From Puia sp. (GTDB lineage: Bacteria; Bacteroidota; Bacteroidia; Chitinophagales; Chitinophagaceae): 64,000 bases of DNA. Numbering within the stretch: the stretch's first letter is position 1; the number at the start of each line of letters is the position of its first letter. Shown piece after piece: positions 52,745 through 64,000 of this stretch. The translations under genes and the position numbers were made by a program. The DNA lies in contig JARLGZ010000034.1 of the NCBI GenBank assembly GCA_031292515.1, forward strand, positions 119,120 through 183,119, written 5' to 3'. Below the pieces are notes generated by a model that saw only the letters and a list, made by a program, of their open reading frames with translations, did no database searches and had not been told where the DNA came from.

Positions 52745-54352
52745 TCAGAAGAGCTTTACCAGGATCGGGAAGTAGCGCAGGCCGGTAGCGCACCTGGTTT
52801 GGGACCAGGGGGTCGCAGGTTCGAATCCTGTCTTCCCGACTTGAGAGGACAAAGCAGGAATATTCCCGCTTTGTCCTTTTTCATTTTCGCTGAAAGCCTT
52901 GTCCAGCGTGTATATTATTCGGGCCGCTTCATTGATTCTTGTGGTTCGAAGTCGCTCTCCGTCAAAAGTCAATTTTTCCGGATACATCGAACCAATGACT
53001 TCCCGCTTCTTTTCTATTTCGCCATCCTGGTAGATATAGTCCAGTTTCAGAAGATTGTCAATTCCCGCATCCAGCAGGCCGGGCATGTCCTGGTCCTCTT
53101 CCCGCGCCGCAAGCCGGGCTTTAAGCCTTTCTAACTGCTCTGCATACTTCGATTTCATGTCCCGGAAATCGGCAGGCGCAAGTTGTTTAGAGGATACCAA
53201 TTCCTCGATATATGCAATCTTATCTTCCACCTGGGCGACCTGGGCTAACAGTTCCTTCCGATCATTCAGAAGGGGGGCGGTTTGGCTGTACCAGGATTCG
53301 GTAAGGACGACTTTATAAACGTCTATTGCTTCCGGGCGGGGGATATATTTCTTCAGCTCATAGATCAAGCAATCGTTCACGGCATCGGCGCTGAACCGGC
53401 AGGTACACCCATCAAAGCAGTGATAATAGGAATAATACTTGTTCCGGCCTTTGGACGCGCTGCCGGTCAAAATCTTGCCGCATTCGGGGCAAATGAGGAA
53501 TCCCCGTAGGGGCAAGCTGACATTCGATACCACTTTCAGCCGGTAGGTATTTCTTTTTCTTCCATGAAGAACGTCCTGGACCTTGTAATACAATTCCTCG
53601 GATATAATAGGTTCATGCTTGGCCTTTATGAATTGAGCTTCCTCGCCTTTGTACTTTTCAAGGAATATCTTTCCGCAATAGACGGGGTTGGTAATGCAAG
53701 TCCAAAAGAGGCTTTTGGCTCCTTTAAATCCCTTTTCCCTTGCCATCTTATAGACCTGTTCTGTATTATAGGTGCCTTCGGCTACCTGTTCAAAAGACCA
53801 CCGGACAGTACCGGCTAGGGGTTCCTCGGGGGCAATGTATTTCCTGCCTAATTCATCCGTTTTATTGACATAGCCGACAGGTGCCAGACCCATATAACGC
53901 CCTTCCTTTTTGGCCCGCCGCATTCCGGCTATTACATTCAATGCCCTCCGGTCGTTCTCCACTTCCGGGGCGGCAAGATAGAAGGCCAGCATCATTTTGT
54001 TTTCCGGAACGGATAAGTCCAGCGGCTGCTCGATGGCCTGGGGTTCTACCCCCAACTTGCGGAGGGTATTAATCATTTGGTAGGCATCCCCCGCATTCCG
54101 GCTAAAACGATCCCACTTAATAAATAGCACAAGGTCTGCTTTACCCTTATTCCTTTTCAGGTCGATAAGATATCTTTTCCATTGAGGCCGGTTAAAGGTC
54201 TTTGCTGAATGATCCTCAAAGATCACCTGACGAACGGATATATTATTAATGTTGCAATAACGGCGAAGCAGCTCTTCCTGGCTACGCTGAGAATAGCCTT
54301 TGTCTGCCTGTTCATCGGTGGATACCCGGATGTATAAGTCTGCTATTTTCAT
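52745..54352 (-). CDS. Large serine recombinase (site-specific integrase)
   Basis: A 535-residue recombinase that likely inserts and excises the island. Resolvase domain at residues 1-150 with the catalytic Ser in YIRVSTDEQ (Ser11) and YCNINNISVRQVIFEDHSAK. A Recombinase domain at about 160-265 has GYVNKTDELGRKYIAPEEP. A zinc-ribbon at about 288-325 has CPECGKILTGSASKGRNKYY with Cys pairs. A coiled coil covers 355-430. The last 40 codons read through the tRNA-Pro gene and its terminator (GKTGFEPATPWSQTRCATGL), so integration at the tRNA has set the protein's C-terminus. Gene for excision factor not recognised. Confidence 0.92.
   Translation of the reverse strand: MKIADLYIRVSTDEQADKGYSQRSQEELLRRYCNINNISVRQVIFEDHSAKTFNRPQWKRYLIDLKRNKGKADLVLFIKWDRFSRNAGDAYQMINTLRKLGVEPQAIEQPLDLSVPENKMMLAFYLAAPEVENDRRALNVIAGMRRAKKEGRYMGLAPVGYVNKTDELGRKYIAPEEPLAGTVRWSFEQVAEGTYNTEQVYKMAREKGFKGAKSLFWTCITNPVYCGKIFLEKYKGEEAQFIKAKHEPIISEELYYKVQDVLHGRKRNTYRLKVVSNVSLPLRGFLICPECGKILTGSASKGRNKYYSYYHCFDGCTCRFSADAVNDCLIYELKKYIPRPEAIDVYKVVLTESWYSQTAPLLNDRKELLAQVAQVEDKIAYIEELVSSKQLAPADFRDMKSKYAEQLERLKARLAAREEDQDMPGLLDAGIDNLLKLDYIYQDGEIEKKREVIGSMYPEKLTFDGERLRTTRINEAARIIYTLDKAFSENEKGQSGNIPALSSQVGKTGFEPATPWSQTRCATGLRYFPILVKLF
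52766..52839 (+). tRNA. tRNA-Pro (anticodon TGG)
   Basis: A 74-nt cloverleaf. Acceptor arm CGGGAAG (52766-52772) pairs with CTTCCCG (52832-52838). The anticodon stem CCTGG/CCAGG encloses the loop TTTGGGA (TGG anticodon). The T-arm has GGTTCGAATCC. CCA is not encoded. It is the attachment site of the mobile island on its 3-prime side. Confidence 0.97.
52846..52882 (+). terminator. Terminator of tRNA-Pro
   Basis: Arms AGGACAAAGC (52846-52855) and GCTTTGTCCT (52868-52877) followed by TTTTC. It starts six bases after the tRNA and lies inside the recombinase coding frame on the other strand. Confidence 0.85.
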
Positions 54353-55796: not shown

Positions 55797-57404
55797 ATGA
55801 GCATAACCGCCACACAAGGACAAGCTGTCCTCGATCGTTTTCTATCAGCATGGAACCTGAATCGGATCAGGGTTATGACGGTGGCTGAATATGCAGATCT
55901 GGGCAACCATGATTCGTTTTGCTACTGGCTCGAATACGGCACGAAGGAACTGGGGCTGATCGGCGGCATCCGCTTACAGAAATTCGAGCTATGGAAGAGT
56001 GATCCGTCAAAGGTTTTCCGGGACGGGCGGTTCCGGCTGGAAAATGGATATGCCTGGAATGCGAATAAGGGGGGCACCCTGGAAGAAGCATTTCAAAGGA
56101 TCAAGGCATTGATCATACGGATCGTCGAACTTAGCCAGGAGGGAGACTGGGAGAAGATTGACCAGGTGCCCTTCAACGCGATTGGAAAATGGAAGATCGC
56201 ATTTCTTTTTTCCGGTAAGCGGCTATTGCCGGTGTACAGTCGCCGGGCCCTGAAGGCGATTGCCGCCGGTTTGGGGTTGACGATCGCCGGCGACGCGCCG
56301 GTGTCGATCTTTCAACGGGGGATATTGTCGCAAAAAGGCCCGGAGGAGGAAGTACTGTCGTTCTCGATCCGGGTCTATTTCGCCTTTGCAGCCAAAGATA
56401 CGAGCCGGCAGTACTTTATCATTGGCAGTATGTACAACGGGTCTGACTCAGTCATGAAGCAATTCCTGGAGCGAAGTTGTGTAGCCATGGGGTGGATCGA
56501 CTGGATGGATTTTTCGGATCTCATGGGTGCGGGAAGGCCGGAGATCGACCGATATGTGGATGATAACTACCACGATCCGAAGCCGAGGGCACAAAACATC
56601 AAGTCTTATTTCCGCATTTTTTCGAAAATACTGGAGGGCGACATCATTGCGGTGAAGTCAAAGGGTTCGCATGGAGAGTTGACAATCATCGCGTATGCCA
56701 GGGTAGTGTGTCGGAACGGCGAGATCTATTTTCACGATGAGGGGGACCTTGGTCATTGTATCCATGTCGAGTTTCTGGACGCCAACTTCGAAAAGTATGT
56801 TGGGGAGAACTATGCCTGGACGATTCATCAGCTGACCCGGGAAAAGGACAAGCAGACGTTTTATGACGTGTTCGGCTGGTATTCCGGAGAAGCGGAAGAA
56901 CATGGAATTGGGGTATCTGATGAAGAGGAGGACTTCCCCACCGCATCCGGGGAGTCGGAAACAGAGGAGGGTTTCGAAGAAGGTTATACAGAGAAGTCCG
57001 AAGAATCTTTCGAACGTTCGGCAGGGGCCAGAGTCTTTGTCGGCCTGGTGCACAACGTGATGCAGAATCGCTTCATGAAATACTTGGAGCAGACGTATCC
57101 CGATGATCTTTTGTCGGGAGAAAAACGATACGTGGACGCCAGAAGGTTGGCTGGGGAGGTGTTGTATCTATACGAGATCAAGCCGGACGCGAGTGTTTAT
57201 ACGTGCATCCGGCAGGGCATCGGACAGCTCCTGGATTATCGTTTTCAGGACCGCAGTGGAAAGGACAAGGTGCTGGTGGTCGTGGGTCAGAACGAGCCGA
57301 ACTCGGATGATCAGCGGTTCATAGATTATATGCGGGAGACCTTGCGGGTGGAATTCCAATATCTGGCGTTTGATTCCGCGAAAATGAGGGTAAAACAGTT
57401 CTAG
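55797..57404 (+). CDS. Putative modification-dependent restriction protein (McrB-N + EVE/PUA-like + PD-(D/E)XK)
   Basis: A 535-residue cytosolic protein with three parts. Residues 1-165 resemble the N-terminal domain seen ahead of the AAA part in many McrB-like proteins (SFCYWLEYGTKELGLIGG; YAWNANKGGTLEEAFQRIKA). Residues about 200-365 look like an EVE/PUA-type nucleobase-binding domain (YFIIGSMYNGSD, SYFRIFSKILEGDIIAVKSK). After an acidic linker (370-410) comes a PD-(D/E)XK nuclease with Asp447 and Glu460-x-Lys462 (YVDARR then LYEIKPDASVYTCIRQGIG). No NTPase motor is present, unlike McrBC. It probably recognises a modified base and cuts DNA. It is first in a three-gene plus-strand cassette. 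Confidence 0.6.
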   Translation: MSITATQGQAVLDRFLSAWNLNRIRVMTVAEYADLGNHDSFCYWLEYGTKELGLIGGIRLQKFELWKSDPSKVFRDGRFRLENGYAWNANKGGTLEEAFQRIKALIIRIVELSQEGDWEKIDQVPFNAIGKWKIAFLFSGKRLLPVYSRRALKAIAAGLGLTIAGDAPVSIFQRGILSQKGPEEEVLSFSIRVYFAFAAKDTSRQYFIIGSMYNGSDSVMKQFLERSCVAMGWIDWMDFSDLMGAGRPEIDRYVDDNYHDPKPRAQNIKSYFRIFSKILEGDIIAVKSKGSHGELTIIAYARVVCRNGEIYFHDEGDLGHCIHVEFLDANFEKYVGENYAWTIHQLTREKDKQTFYDVFGWYSGEAEEHGIGVSDEEEDFPTASGESETEEGFEEGYTEKSEESFERSAGARVFVGLVHNVMQNRFMKYLEQTYPDDLLSGEKRYVDARRLAGEVLYLYEIKPDASVYTCIRQGIGQLLDYRFQDRSGKDKVLVVVGQNEPNSDDQRFIDYMRETLRVEFQYLAFDSAKMRVKQF

Positions 57405-59617: not shown

Positions 59618-60100
59618 TTATTTCATTACCCTATGGAGGAGTAATAATAAATTATCATAATTTAGAATTACTGCTGTAATTATGGCACCAAAGAAAACAT
59701 AATTTGCAGCCCGGTTTTTAGTTGTGTCGGAGACTTTAAAGTTTAATAATGCCATTAGAAAAAAACAAGAAAACAAAAGTGCCAAGAAGGTTAAAAATAG
59801 GTCTGTAAAGAATTTGGAAAAAAACGCCAAGCCGATTGTGACAATAAATATCACTCCCGATAAATTCTCTTTCTTTAATTTATTGCCATTCTTTTTAAAT
59901 GTCGAGTAAGAAAGATAAATTGCGCAGACCGCTGAAAAATACAAAACGATGGACCTTAAAAGAGAAAATTTGAAAGTCAGAATAGCAATTGCAGCTAGTG
60001 GAAAGAATATCAGCGCAATTGTCTTCGAGGACTGTCTATCTTCCTTTGTATCCTTATCTTCATCAATTTCTAATGGTTTAATTTCTGTCTCTGACTTCAT
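59618..60100 (-). CDS. Small multi-pass membrane protein, end of Hsp70 operon
   Basis: A 160-residue membrane protein with an acidic cytosolic N-terminus (SETEIKPLEIDEDKDTKEDR) and about five hydrophobic spans (IALIFFPLAAIAILTFKFSL; GVIFIVTIGLAFFSKFFTDL; YVFFGAIITAVILNY). ATG 60100 overlaps the previous gene by 23 bases, a sign of translational coupling; an earlier start would extend the overlap. Function unknown. Its presence behind an Hsp70 gene suggests a membrane-linked role for the operon. Confidence 0.6.
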   Translation of the reverse strand: MKSETEIKPLEIDEDKDTKEDRQSSKTIALIFFPLAAIAILTFKFSLLRSIVLYFSAVCAIYLSYSTFKKNGNKLKKENLSGVIFIVTIGLAFFSKFFTDLFLTFLALLFSCFFLMALLNFKVSDTTKNRAANYVFFGAIITAVILNYDNLLLLLHRVMK

Positions 60101-60392
60101 TGTACTCTTTAAAAAAAACAACTGATAATAGCAGACCAATGGCAACAATAATATCTACGATATTCCAAATTGATCTACCTAATGCTATCTTCACAAATGG
60201 CTGAAATAGCAAAGCAAGGGCAAAGAAAACCACCGTTTCAATTTTGGCTCCTTTTTTGTTTGCCTGAATCGCAAGTAATACGAAACCGATCAATGCTACA
60301 AAGCGTACAAACTGATAATAACCGTACGGCATTTTTAGAAGACATGCCAATAGCAAACCGGCGAGTATTACTTTTATAAGCCCAGGTTTCAT
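60078..60392 (-). CDS. DUF6804-like small membrane protein
   Basis: A 104-residue protein with three to four helices (VILAGLLLACLLKMPYGYYQ; FVALIGFVLLAIQANKKG; VVFFALALLFQPFVKIALGR; VDIIVAIGLLLSVVF). The PYGYYxFVR and NPxxxIxLGRxxW-like pattern (FQPFVKIALGRSIWNIVD) matches DUF6804. It starts 15 bp after the Hsp70 gene and overlaps the next gene, so it belongs to the same operon. Biochemical role unknown. Confidence 0.65.
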   Translation of the reverse strand: MKPGLIKVILAGLLLACLLKMPYGYYQFVRFVALIGFVLLAIQANKKGAKIETVVFFALALLFQPFVKIALGRSIWNIVDIIVAIGLLLSVVFFKEYNEVRDRN

Positions 60393-60407
60393 AGTTGTAA
60401 TATTAAA

Positions 60408-62903
60408 TTATATTCCAAATCTCCCCGTTTTTGCCTCTTGCTGAGCCGTTTTGGGCAGTAAACCGATCAATCCCCAGTTGATTTCCCTAAGACGGTCATA
60501 ATTTTTGTTCGCAATCGCCAGATTCCCGGATTCTATTAAGCTTTTTGCCTGGTCTTGATTATTAAATAATTGGGGTTTTTCAATTAATCGGCTAAAACGG
60601 GACTCTAGGAATGACGGGGTACGCCAAAGGATATTGGCACCCAGGTTAATTAGCTCATCATTAGCCTCAAGGATTTTGATTGGTGTAGCGGAGTTTAAGA
60701 AGGATGGTTCACGTGCTATGATGTCATTAAATAGCTTATGGTCGTGATCATTCCCATTCTCCTGCAGTATTTGCCTGCACCATTCTTTATCTTCTTCATA
60801 TTTTATCTTTAACAGAGATATCCGCTTATCTCGGGTCGCCAAGTCAATTTCCTGGGCAATTTTTCTTTTATCATCTTCATACTGATATTTTTTATCTGTC
60901 ACATCGTCTTCTGTAAGGTGACCGGCATCACCTACCAGATTGTCTACTCTCTTTTTCAAGGCTGTTAGTGTATCTGCCGTTTCATAGTCTTCCCTTTTTA
61001 CGGCTTCCGAGATTTCGGTTTCCAATTGTTCTTCCATGGTTTTGACATCCTCTTTTAAATCGGATACTACCAGGTTGCGTTGTGAGGGATTGAAGACCTC
61101 CGTAAATTGCTGATCGGACATGGGAATATATACCGTGACTTTTAAATCTCTACTTTCTGACATTTCCAAGGTAATTTCGATCTCCGTGTTTTTAAGGATA
61201 TCCCTACTCAAGCTCTTGCCGGTGATCTCGAGATGGCCAATTGTCTGATTGGATTCAGCCAGATTGTATTGTGATCCTTCAACGACTTTAATAATGATCT
61301 TTTCATCACCTCCTTTCAACACCGTTTTGTTAAGCGTGGGATAGATAGTCCGTTTCTGTGGAAGGATGGTGTTTTTTTGAAAAATCAATTCGAGCTTTGA
61401 AGATGCTCCTTCTATGTCCGGATTGGCATCCTTTACCAGGCATATATCATAAGGGAGCGGTTGTCCGGATACATTGTATTTTCCGTGTGCAATCCCTATG
61501 AGTTCTATATCAGTATCTACTACATTATTCAGTTCATCCAAAATCACGAACCGGAAAAAGTTATAAGAGTTTTTCAATAGTGGGAGATCTTCCGATATCC
61601 TCGCTGTTAATTTCTTCCGTCCGCTATCATATCCCTTATCCTCTCTGGTAATCTGATAATAAAGCCCTTCTATCTTGCCATCGACACGTGCGGCCAATAT
61701 TTCCTCCTCTTCCTGAGACGTTTTTTGATAAGCCAACTTTACTTTAATTGAGCTGCTGGATTTTTTGACTCTGTTTTCATCAAAGGTTTTCTCTTTAGTT
61801 CCCGCATAGTAAGCAGCTCCAATGGCTATGGCTGTTGTCGGATCAATGTCACAGTTAATGGGGATTTGAAGGATCTCTTCTACGCGTTTTCGTACATAGG
61901 GAATATAGGTAGAGCCCCCAACCAACAAGGTAAATTGTACGTCGCCAGCTTTCAACGAGTTTCGAACCAAAATTTTCTTGATTTTGTCTGTTGTTTTATC
62001 CACCAGGTCTTTGACCAAGGTTTCGAATTCCGATCGGGTGATTTCGAAGCTTGTATCAATCTCTTCTCCCTCGTCGTCGGTAATGTCTCTAAGCTCAATT
62101 TCTGCTGACGTCTTCATAGAAAGGGATATTTTGGCTTGTTCGGCAAGCCACAATAATCTGAAATAGAGGGCATTCCGCTTTCCGGTAGCGCTTTTTAATT
62201 CATCTTCCAGGTTGGAAAACCGGAAATGTTTATCCAGAAACGGAACAATCATTTTTTCCACCATTAAATTGTCGAAGTCTGCTCCTCCTAGGAAATTATC
62301 TCCTTCATGATCCAGCACCTTCATTTCCCCATCCTTAATTTTTATTAATGCGACGTCAAAAGTGCCGCCTCCCAGATCATATACGAGCCATTGACCATTT
62401 TCCAAATCCTTTTCTTTGTGCTTATTTGCGTAGGCTAGGCTAGCGGCAATCGGTTCCTGAAGAAGGATCACCTGTTTAAACCCAGCCAATAATCCAGCAT
62501 CTTTCGTGGCATTAGATTGTATTACATCAAAGGAGGCTGGTATGGTAATCACCGCGGCGTCCACTTGTTCACCCGTGTGAATAAACCCCTTTAGCTCTTT
62601 CAGCACTTCGGAGGATAATTCCACCGGGGTTTTAATTTGGTCCAGGTTTTTTACTTTAAAGCTTTCAGTAGTCCCCATTTTCCGTTTGAACGTACTGAAT
62701 ACATTTTTGGCGTCCCTCTCTAGATAGGTTCTTGCCCGACTGCCAACAATGATTTTATCATTTTTATAGTATACAACAGACGGGATAGTTTCTTTTCCTG
62801 TTTCGAGGGGGTTCTTAAATACTTCGACTTCCCCTCTTACAAATTTGGCGATAGCCGAATTAGTGGTACCCAGGTCGATGCCGTAGTTTATCATTTTCTC
62901 CAT
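60408..62903 (-). CDS. Divergent Hsp70-family protein with long C-terminal extension
   Basis: An 831-residue Hsp70-like protein, much longer than DnaK (about 640). The nucleotide-binding domain (1-375) has DLGTTNS (10-16), ITIPASFDVIQSNATKDAG (119-137), VYDLGGGTFDVALI (174-187) and LLVGGSTYIPYVRKRVEEI (326-344). Residues 380-600 are a substrate-binding-like beta region; 610-720 a charged helical, coiled-coil-like lid (VKTMEEQLETEISEAVKRED); 720-831 is a helical tail without the usual EEVD or DnaK end. The GrpE-like gene lies 11 bp upstream, so an exchange factor is coupled. No J-domain gene is seen in the operon part visible here. Housekeeping DnaK is unlikely. Confidence 0.85.
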   Translation of the reverse strand: MEKMINYGIDLGTTNSAIAKFVRGEVEVFKNPLETGKETIPSVVYYKNDKIIVGSRARTYLERDAKNVFSTFKRKMGTTESFKVKNLDQIKTPVELSSEVLKELKGFIHTGEQVDAAVITIPASFDVIQSNATKDAGLLAGFKQVILLQEPIAASLAYANKHKEKDLENGQWLVYDLGGGTFDVALIKIKDGEMKVLDHEGDNFLGGADFDNLMVEKMIVPFLDKHFRFSNLEDELKSATGKRNALYFRLLWLAEQAKISLSMKTSAEIELRDITDDEGEEIDTSFEITRSEFETLVKDLVDKTTDKIKKILVRNSLKAGDVQFTLLVGGSTYIPYVRKRVEEILQIPINCDIDPTTAIAIGAAYYAGTKEKTFDENRVKKSSSSIKVKLAYQKTSQEEEEILAARVDGKIEGLYYQITREDKGYDSGRKKLTARISEDLPLLKNSYNFFRFVILDELNNVVDTDIELIGIAHGKYNVSGQPLPYDICLVKDANPDIEGASSKLELIFQKNTILPQKRTIYPTLNKTVLKGGDEKIIIKVVEGSQYNLAESNQTIGHLEITGKSLSRDILKNTEIEITLEMSESRDLKVTVYIPMSDQQFTEVFNPSQRNLVVSDLKEDVKTMEEQLETEISEAVKREDYETADTLTALKKRVDNLVGDAGHLTEDDVTDKKYQYEDDKRKIAQEIDLATRDKRISLLKIKYEEDKEWCRQILQENGNDHDHKLFNDIIAREPSFLNSATPIKILEANDELINLGANILWRTPSFLESRFSRLIEKPQLFNNQDQAKSLIESGNLAIANKNYDRLREINWGLIGLLPKTAQQEAKTGRFGI

Positions 62904-62914
62904 TGTTCGATAAT

Positions 62915-63265
62915 TTATTTTTTGCTTTCAACAATTACGACGGCTCTTTGCACGATCGTCTTGGTATTGCCATATTTAAAGTAGATGATCGGCTTTAAGA
63001 CTTCGATGATTTGTAGATTCTCATGGCTATCCCCTGAAATATTAGCCTCGCAGTCACTTCTTGTCTCGTTATACGGTTCGCCAATCGGGTTATGGAAAGT
63101 AAGCCCTTGCCCATCTTGCATTGCTTCTGTTTCAAAATAGTTTTTCAACTTATCAATGTTCCTTTGAATTGAATTGGCTTCTTTTATATTCCTCAGTTTG
63201 TTTTCAATTTCAAATAATTGATTCAACACAAATGGTAGATATTTAGGTATTTTTATTGATTCCAT
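62915..63265 (-). CDS. GrpE-like protein
   Basis: A 116-residue protein with a helical N-terminal half (LNQLFEIENKLRNIKEANSI, QRNIDKLKNYFETEAMQDGQ) and a C-terminal beta region reminiscent of GrpE (HNPIGEPYNETRSDCEANIS; NLQIIEVLKPIIYFKYGNTK; VQRAVVIVES). Shorter than GrpE (about 190). It sits directly before the Hsp70-like gene (11 bp), as a nucleotide-exchange partner would. Assignment rests on pattern and position; a structural comparison is needed to confirm. Confidence 0.55.
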   Translation of the reverse strand: MESIKIPKYLPFVLNQLFEIENKLRNIKEANSIQRNIDKLKNYFETEAMQDGQGLTFHNPIGEPYNETRSDCEANISGDSHENLQIIEVLKPIIYFKYGNTKTIVQRAVVIVESKK

Positions 63266-63277
63266 TATTAATTATTT

Positions 63278-63880
63278 TCAAAAATCGGTTTCTGAAATAT
63301 GGTCTGTACTGAATGTATTCGAGTTTGGGTCCGAAAAATATGTGCTCAATTTCAGGCTATAGCTAGGAACATTATAACCATTGACGGTTGGAGTCTGGAA
63401 AAAATCCAAGATTTCACTCCCCTTTTTATAAACCGCATTTAGGGTAAAATGTCCCTTGCATTTTGGGTCTCCAATCAGTACGGACCATTGTTCGCCATAG
63501 GCGATTTTTACATAATACCTACCCTGCGGAATATTTCTCACTGAATAGGTTGTACCGGCTTTTATGAAGACGAAGCGAATGCATTCTCCTGTCGCGTCGT
63601 CTATCAATTTTACAGCCGCATCGGTCGTTTCTGCTGAAATAACGAGCTTATTGTCGATTTCGTAATCGTAACTGGGGCGAAATAAGGTGCAGCCAGAAAT
63701 GTTGCCATTCTTCATCTTTACGGGTTGGTACAGGGGATCGATCGGCGGGGTGCTGATCGAAAGTGGAGGAATGGATACGGTTTTCGTGGATTCATAAGAT
63801 GGCTTGGACTCGCTATTAGCGGAGTAGGTACTCGAAGGCGTGCTGTCGGCTGTAGTGGCCGAGAGTATTCCACTAAGTGT
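63278..63880 (-). pseudogene. Beta-sandwich protein gene cut by IS element
   Basis: The C-terminal part (63278-63715, 145 residues) has a compact beta domain: LVISAETTDAAVKLIDDATG, IRFVFIKAGTTYSVRNIPQG and YYVKIAYGEQWSVLIG. The frame remains open upstream of the only ATG (63715) for another 55 codons with a Ser/Thr/Pro-rich linker (SANSESKPSYESTKTVSIPP), up to the IS edge near 63880, where a stop inside the IS closes it. So the real gene began further right and has been split. Distances to the GrpE-like gene (12 bp) show it was the first or an early gene of the Hsp70 operon. Confidence 0.7.
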
Positions 63881-64000
63881 GTCAGTTTAAAATTTTCGTA
63901 AATTTAAACTGATAAACATGGAAAAGCAATCATTCGATTTTGAAACATTCAAAAAGCAGGCAGCCAGCCGGATCAAGAACGGCGAGACGCTGCTGGGTAA
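63881..64000 (+). mobile_element. IS256-type insertion sequence, left end (partial)
   Basis: The element's left end lies near 63881 (GTCAGTTTAAAATTTTCG), followed by a transposase gene. TCAGTTTAAA (63882-63891) and TTTAAACTGA (63903-63912) form a 10-bp hairpin before the ATG. The right end and target duplication are outside the window, so the exact border is not proven. Confidence 0.7.
63918..64000 (+). CDS. IS256-family transposase (N-terminal fragment, cut by window end)
   Basis: Starts at ATG 63918 and runs off the window. The first 27 residues (MEKQSFDFETFKKQAASRIK, then NGETLLG) match the start of IS256/mutator-type transposases, where a LEEFKKQA-like helix leads to KSLTGKDG. No catalytic DDE residues are visible yet. 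Its position inside the disrupted gene explains the broken frame next to it. Confidence 0.7.
   Translation, partial: MEKQSFDFETFKKQAASRIKNGETLLG

Follow-up and report, generated by a model that had tools for sequence, protein, structure and literature searches.

A recurrent Hsp70 module with a predicted GrpE-fold protein and J-like partners usually predicted to span the membrane, damaged by an insertion sequence in Puia sp.

The window, which is the whole 64,000-nucleotide stretch analyzed here (Puia sp., assembly GCA_031292515.1, contig JARLGZ010000034.1, positions 119,120 to 183,119), carries near its end an operon for a non-canonical Hsp70 and a small GrpE-like protein, which we term mini-GrpE. 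Five open reading frames (ORFs) lie on the minus strand over 59618-63715, with successive gaps of 12, 11 and 15 bp followed by one overlap (Table 1). The original prediction had read them as an accessory chaperone operon on a mobile island, encoding a beta-sandwich protein, a GrpE-like protein, an 831-residue Hsp70 with an extra C-terminal region, a DUF6804-like protein and a further membrane protein, and the ORF list bears out its strand and spacing. Searches with Pfam identified the Hsp70 and, as predicted, the DUF6804 protein; the other three ORFs had no family over the cut-off. The host genome encodes its own DnaK, with a canonical linker, on a separate contig (C242) and its own GrpE on separate contig C33, in agreement with an accessory, non-housekeeping Hsp70 that has its own GrpE-like partner.

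Table 1 Features of the window discussed in the text
Feature	Position	Strand	Remarks
Non-canonical Hsp70, 831 aa	60408-62903	-	Pfam HSP70 PF00012 3.6e-77; AlphaFold2 (AF2) predicted local distance difference test (pLDDT) 83.7
Hsp70 ATPase domain, residues 1-369	61797-62903	-	alignment to the genome's own DnaK
Inserted beta domain, ~100 residues, strands 387-473, replacing the canonical interdomain linker	61485-61745	-	alignment and model
Substrate-binding beta domain, residues 487-604	61092-61445	-	alignment to own DnaK and model
Extended helical C-terminal region, residues 613-826	60426-61067	-	predicted secondary structure
Mini-GrpE, 116 aa, predicted two helices and six-strand beta domain	62915-63265	-	
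3' remnant, about 194 codons, of a J-like membrane/TPR gene	63278-63860	-	contains the 'beta-sandwich' ORF 63278-63715
Insertion-sequence end cutting the J-like gene	63861-64000	+	start of transposase ORF runs past the contig end
DUF6804 small membrane protein, 104 aa	60078-60392	-	Pfam 4.9e-33
Gene 5, nearly orphan membrane protein (160 aa when started at ATG 60100)	59618-60100 (ORF 59618-60148)	-	overlaps the end of the DUF6804 gene
Large serine recombinase at island edge	52745-54352	-	overlaps tRNA-Pro 52766-52840 (+)
535-aa protein, candidate defence gene	55797-57404	opposite Hsp70 operon	PD-T4-1-like stretch 6.1e-18; weaker PDC-S02-like 3.1e-4

Alignment to the genome's own DnaK revealed that the Hsp70 retains the catalytic motifs Lys73, the GGGTFD phosphate loop and Glu150, and its ATPase domain has the phosphate and adenosine motifs that characterize the DnaK type. 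Its score lies far below the NCBIfam cut-off for prok_dnaK (264.8 bits against 822.55) and also under that for HscA (238.2 bits against 708.55). The extra C-terminal region of the original prediction corresponds to the long predicted helical part between residues 613 and 826, while the beta domain between the ATPase and substrate-binding domains had been missed. Foldseek aligned the AF2 model, with its insert, to two-domain Hsp70 structures. The best fits have a root-mean-square deviation (rmsd) of about 4 (for example 6zmd, TMt 0.82, rmsd 3.9), and the fits range from about 4 to above 20 because the domain arrangements differ.

Contact of the His-Pro-Asp (HPD) motif of J-proteins with Arg167 and the interdomain linker is the widely accepted switch by which these partners fire Hsp70. 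As described in PMC13012618, the aspartate docks onto Arg167 (D35-R167) and the histidine onto Leu391 of the linker (H33-L391). In the window Hsp70 the equivalent of Arg167 is Ile146. We set 45 Hsp70s from 44 loci (L159 contributes two) and 120 homologues against 75 control DnaK-like proteins; the window protein belongs to both the locus set and the homologue set. Arginine occupies the Arg167 position in none of the 42 locus proteins in which it could be resolved (3 could not) and in none of the homologues, against 73 of the 75 controls; the remaining two controls have a glutamine and an unresolved position. The canonical linker pattern is likewise absent from all 45 locus proteins and all 120 homologues, against 65/75 controls that have it. 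These homologues are the best of 948 proteins that match residues 375-831 at E <= 1e-3 (7996 candidates scored), and the 119 besides the query are 68-80% identical to it. One could regard the protein as an ordinary divergent DnaK paralogue that keeps the overall Hsp70 fold and ATP-site residues, has lost the linker and Arg167 through drift, and owes its gene linkage to ordinary operon inheritance. Against this, the loss of Arg167 is universal among the resolved members of both sets, the C-terminal half is conserved at the identities just given, and the aligned J-like partners lack the HPD in step (see below). We consider such an origin very improbable.

Mini-GrpE is predicted to have the GrpE fold, a helix pair followed by a beta domain, without the long N-terminal helix; the earlier description as GrpE-like is upheld with that one part missing. 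The model aligns to GrpE from about residue 77-101 onward, with 11-21% identity to seven GrpE entries. The Pfam family GrpE (PF01025) does not match the window protein, and the housekeeping GrpE is the one protein of its genome to score over the cut-off; across the family it matches 4 of 31 mini-GrpE members weakly (best 5.3e-4). At eight loci the GrpE-like domain stands at the C-terminal end of a longer ORF (300-336 aa) that has a predicted transmembrane (TM) stretch. In all eight of these long nucleotide-exchange factor (NEF) ORFs a hydrophobic stretch begins at 111-145, ahead of the GrpE-like domain, and in what we call the kinase/TerB subtype the domain is predicted to end a protein made of signal peptide, coiled coil and TM segment. 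The missing long helix, the low identity and this placement in a TM ORF set the family apart from GrpE and GrpEL1.

The 145-aa ORF that had been taken for a beta-sandwich gene of its own is instead the 3' end of a large J-like gene, with about 170 matching C-terminal residues. This follows because the frame stays open upstream of the ATG at 63715 until about 63861 and the translation matches residues 659-823, at the C-terminus, of an intact 826-aa relative in locus L137 (46% over 171 aligned positions, E 1e-47). That relative lies directly upstream of mini-GrpE and Hsp70 in the closest intact locus, and it begins with a J-like domain and further has two hydrophobic stretches, TPRs and a beta domain. 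In the window, the gene is cut by an insertion sequence, which we take to be of the IS256/mutator type. The same ~140 bases recur on four other contigs of the genome, in alignments that begin at window position 63857 or 63861. The insertion-sequence end is thus present on five contigs (that of the window and L006-L009); the window contig breaks off within it, and L007 (1640 bases) stops where the match ends.

The N-terminal part of the L137 protein has no match in the window's assembly, where only the C-terminal fragment and unrelated TPR regions were found, and the window copy lacks the part of the gene that would carry the HPD region. Three readings fit: a J-like gene truncated in this genome, a 5' part hidden in an assembly gap, or a 5' part too divergent to see. 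As the gene is broken in this genome, the window copy of the module may be impaired. It could even be a decaying, functionless remnant, whatever the family does elsewhere, as the cut by the insertion sequence and the unmatched N-terminal part would suggest. The Hsp70, mini-GrpE and DUF6804 frames are nevertheless intact, and since the assembly is interrupted at the insertion sequence, the missing 5' part could lie in the gap; we find functionless decay somewhat doubtful.

To describe the family we collected 44 loci (the window, L010-L013, L090, L091, L101-L108 and L137-L165), leaving out G323, a 145-aa fragment. In the contig scan the matches listed were mostly to the ATPase domain, and only L010-L013 were kept from it as family members. 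Iterated profiles place a mini-GrpE gene directly 5' of the Hsp70 gene in 40/44 loci; at L159 it precedes two tandem Hsp70 genes. A recognizable J-like gene lies nearby in 36/44, and 33/44 have both. The profile seeds came from the 44 loci searched, so the E-values of these linkage profiles are not independent. No J-like gene was recognized in eight loci: the window (truncated), L163 (at a contig edge), L010, L091, L103, L104, L108 and L146. In L010, L091, L103, L104 and L108 a neighbor matches the type-1 J-like profile marginally (E 0.002-0.45 in an eight-protein set, some of these about chance level), and among the neighbors of L146 no J-like gene could be named. Pairwise distances between the Hsp70s correlate with those between the mini-GrpEs (r 0.940, 40 loci) and between the J-like proteins (r 0.934, 24 loci), values reached by none of 5000 permutations in either case. 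The conserved core thus consists of a J-like protein that is usually predicted to be transmembrane, mini-GrpE and an Hsp70 of ~830 residues. The expectation that the Hsp70 and GrpE-like genes recur together was borne out, with the J-like gene as a third member; the five genes of the window do not travel as a set, since DUF6804 is found in 10/44 loci, TerB in 11/44 and gene 5 is nearly unique. In a separate observation, L159 combines its tandem Hsp70s (847 and 763 aa) with two J-like genes in one cluster.

The family is patchy in its distribution, being present in 9/296 genomes drawn from the phylum and 32/396 drawn from the order, two draws that share genomes, and in none of the six further genomes of the same genus that were listed. 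Distant members, among the matches listed, come from records named Nubsella, Bacillota metagenome-assembled genome (MAG), Pseudonocardia and Myxococcales MAG. Fifteen plasmid records carry it (Pseudomonas, Vibrio, Shewanella, Aeromonas, Polaromonas, 7 Sinorhizobium, 2 Aminobacter and Haliscomenobacter), of which L206, judging by length and neighbors, is the same record as L156. In two plasmid copies, L208 and L209, the Hsp70 gene is interrupted, one being annotated as two ORFs and the other having an ISNCY transposase inside. A phage or virus origin was considered and not adopted, as no match was confirmed in viral contigs with a close relative as query or in phages with the L108 protein as query.

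The J-like proteins have N-terminal domains of two related types (type 1 against type 2, P 4.6e-5 by hhalign), which resemble helices I-II of the J-domain with P 2.1e-4 for type 2 and 0.28 for type 1, a likeness significant in type 2 alone, shuffled sequences giving at least 0.22. In none of the 29 aligned J-like domains, from 42 J-like ORFs, does an HPD stand at the canonical place between helices II and III; one HPD triplet, in the L155 protein, lies away from it. At least one hydrophobic stretch occurs in 33/42 ORFs. The C-terminal parts vary and contain TPRs, beta domains, cysteine pairs, or nothing past the hydrophobic stretch. L148, L149 and L147 have two or three J-like paralogs per Hsp70, as though a single chaperone served several membrane partners. 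The name PDC-S68 was tried for the J-like protein and rejected, as neither candidate matched; two locus neighbors do match PDC-S68.

We lean slightly towards the view that the three-gene module, where intact, forms a self-contained Hsp70 cycle that is held at the inner membrane and runs apart from DnaK/DnaJ/GrpE. Its first step would fall to the membrane J-like protein, which would bring Hsp70 in the ATP-bound state to clients on the cytoplasmic side. Since the J-like domain lacks the HPD, and the Hsp70 lacks its docking points, Arg167 and the leucine-rich linker, ATP hydrolysis would be triggered differently, through a contact that does without the HPD, and the inserted beta domain would probably do the coupling. 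Mini-GrpE would then exchange the nucleotide and free the client. In the kinase/TerB subtype an envelope event might set nucleotide exchange directly, because there the GrpE-like domain ends a protein with a predicted signal peptide, coiled coil and TM segment. Together the three proteins may handle membrane or envelope stress, membrane stress being one option of the original prediction, and the domains outside the membrane may serve as sensors.

Several observations weigh against this self-contained cycle. For the GrpE assignment, Rpf1_C matches 5/31 mini-GrpEs (best 0.0061), more members than GrpE does but more weakly, and Foldseek alone gave no GrpE match below E 1e-3 for mini-GrpE. An N-terminal signal-like stretch exceeds the threshold in only 4/8 long NEF ORFs. 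The relation of the J-like proteins to the J-domain is weak: the type nearest the window is type 1, with its P of 0.28, so that the relation there leans on the similarity between the two types, Pfam DnaJ matches 2/29 members (best 0.029), and one member matches DUF7225 at 4e-4. Nine of the 42 J-like ORFs have no hydrophobic stretch, and the TM calls come from a Kyte-Doolittle heuristic. Four of the 44 loci lack mini-GrpE (L013, L106, L153 and L163, the last at a contig edge), the J-like gene is truncated in the window genome itself, and the patchy presence indicates that the function is not essential.

Compared with DnaK-DnaJ-GrpE, the module shares an ATPase domain, a substrate-binding beta domain, a helical lid, a predicted GrpE-fold exchange factor and a J-like partner, and it differs in having the ~100-aa beta domain in place of the linker, no Arg167, no HPD, a GrpE without the long helix and a J-like partner that is usually predicted to be transmembrane. 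Another parallel is HscC, which, according to PMC8215388, is stimulated by DjlC, DjlB and DjlC being tail-anchored; this offers a precedent, by analogy, for recruitment of an Hsp70 to the membrane. Shared with that system are a specialized Hsp70, genetically linked membrane-anchored J proteins and a sporadic distribution, whereas HscC has 550-580 aa (PMC8215388) and the Hsp70 here ~830 (831 in the window) with an adjacent mini-GrpE. The family could follow the HscC/HscA model and serve, without any sensing role, as a specialized chaperone whose clients are one or a few membrane or envelope proteins with genes elsewhere. The stimulation of HscC by DjlC speaks for this, as do the J-like proteins of L142-L145, which have a single C-terminal hydrophobic stretch, and three loci, L102, L152 and L165, where the module lies divergent beside a CbpA-type J gene with an HPD and a small gene that is presumably CbpM-like. 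HscA and HscC are, however, described in PMC8215388 as not needing a GrpE partner, while the family here keeps a GrpE-like one, and no recurring client gene was noticed in the neighborhoods read, for which no systematic test was run. Overall we think the client-chaperone explanation quite unlikely.

The closest earlier description of such a module that we found in the openly available literature searched is the second theme of the GAP1-N2 GTPase neighborhoods, about 14% of which contain HSP70 and GrpE, as given in PMC7159879. Both settings join HSP70 and GrpE with a DnaJ/TPR-type partner and are predicted to work close to the membrane and in a conflict context. The GAP1-N2 theme differs in being centered on a GTPase and an FNIII-repeat protein and in being predominantly actinobacterial or firmicute (PMC7159879); no GTPase or FNIII-repeat component was noticed in the neighborhoods read here, in which no dedicated GTPase or FNIII model was run.

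Around this core the accessory genes vary. The DUF6804 gene lies downstream of the Hsp70 gene in its ten loci, the window included. The sequence makes ATG 60100, rather than TTG 60148, the most likely start of gene 5, and this gene stands outside the conserved set because only one homolog besides itself was found among 5.8 billion proteins. An apparent likeness of gene 5 to the L137 J-like protein (profile 4e-97) was rejected as profile drift on TM composition, the direct BLASTP E-value being 0.022; against another L137 membrane protein it is 0.005. PF05099 backs the TerB assignment in L139 (3.7e-6) and in L157 (0.024), and a kinase/AAA profile matches in 10/44 loci. The L157 kinase gene encodes a protein kinase-AAA fusion (PF00069 4.9e-35, PF00004 3.7e-35), and L108 has the AAA part only. 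In L157 this fusion is clustered with Hsp70, TerB and DUF6804.

The window operon lies on an island that is likely mobile. The island appears to adjoin tRNA-Pro, since the ORF of a large serine recombinase at its edge overlaps that gene on the opposite strand; its far end falls outside the contig, which ends at 183119 together with the window. The recombinase at the tRNA gene and the absence of a window-type Hsp70 from the six same-genus genomes support the island setting that had been proposed. Between 54.8 and 59.5 kb four genes lie on the strand opposite the operon, one of which, with a PD-T4-1-like stretch, is a candidate for defence.

The same parts, differing in purpose more than in composition, could constitute an anti-phage system, the other option of the original prediction: the J-like protein would sense phage membrane damage or capture a phage protein, and the Hsp70 cycle would activate an effector or be one, with kinase-AAA and TerB proteins in some subtypes. 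Besides the PD-T4-1-like gene, several mobile copies stand beside known systems. Thoeris ThsB and a PDC-M50A-like gene lie just upstream at L108, BREX BrxL/PglZ at L156/L206, DruE of Druantia at L160, and, at L140, a type I restriction fragment at a distance of roughly 5-7 kb. On plasmids the neighbors include Zorya ZorA/ZorB with GajB of Gabija (L204), GajA/GajB with a type IIG enzyme (L205) and GajA/GajB-like genes (L207), and two of the plasmid copies, L203 and L208, adjoin Tn7-like transposition genes. Many chromosomal copies, on the other hand, lie among housekeeping genes. PADLOC matched no family to the window Hsp70, mini-GrpE, remnant ORF, DUF6804 protein or gene 5, nor to the Hsp70s and NEFs of L108 and L157 or the J-like proteins of L157 and L137. 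Among the accessory proteins, the kinase and AAA proteins match several kinase and AAA defence models.

We compared stretches next to the locus (25, 15 or 19 kb) with antipodal control stretches (19 kb) on eight plasmids, omitting Aeromonas, S. medicae and other redundant rows. Toxin-antitoxin, Fic and HNH genes and the L091 CARF regulator were kept out of the defence count for locus and control stretches alike. Defence genes were found near the locus on 5/8 plasmids (Polaromonas, S. meliloti, Sinorhizobium sp. CCBAU 05631, Aminobacter and Haliscomenobacter; not Pseudomonas, Vibrio or Shewanella) and in 2/8 controls (Haliscomenobacter and the Sinorhizobium sp.). For the enrichment near defence genes on which the original prediction called for a check, this difference is not significant; PADLOC was applied to the locus side only, and by annotated names alone that side counts 4/8, as Aminobacter drops out.

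Among chromosomal neighbors, PADLOC families at E <= 1e-8 numbered 116 in 'accessory' against 48 in 'housekeeping-like' loci, a contrast that is not blind because the loci were split after being seen. The scans took up to 7 neighbors of at least 120 aa within 7 kb per locus: 108/117 listed neighbors of 22 accessory loci and 113/134 of 20 housekeeping-like loci, of which 18 were used after the near-duplicates L143 and L144 had been dropped. Seven further proteins, mostly long, were excluded from the latter scan for size, and L152 and L165 are in neither set. A type II methyltransferase and restriction enzyme also occur in the housekeeping-like set. Taken together, the anti-phage role proposed at the outset is favored by the mobile copies beside BREX, Zorya, Gabija, Thoeris and Druantia and disfavored by the many copies among housekeeping genes: a defence role is plausible in the mobile copies, while as an account of the family we regard it as unlikely.

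We conclude that this Hsp70 module is real, recurs, and is unusual in mechanism, and that the window holds a copy of it damaged by an insertion sequence. Tentatively, and with rather less than even confidence, we propose a fourth bacterial Hsp70 class beside DnaK, HscA and HscC. In this class the HPD-Arg167-linker trigger would have been abandoned, a membrane-spanning J-like protein and, in one subtype, a transmembrane GrpE would turn envelope or phage events into ATPase cycles, and the inserted beta domain would act as an allosteric coupler. The family is widespread and well conserved, and in it all three contact points are gone together in the chaperone and its partner while a protein of predicted GrpE fold is kept. 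If the module works, it would be a natural second solution to Hsp70 control, possibly with a transmembrane nucleotide-exchange factor, and should the mobile copies prove protective against phage, the cycling of a chaperone would in itself be a defence mechanism.

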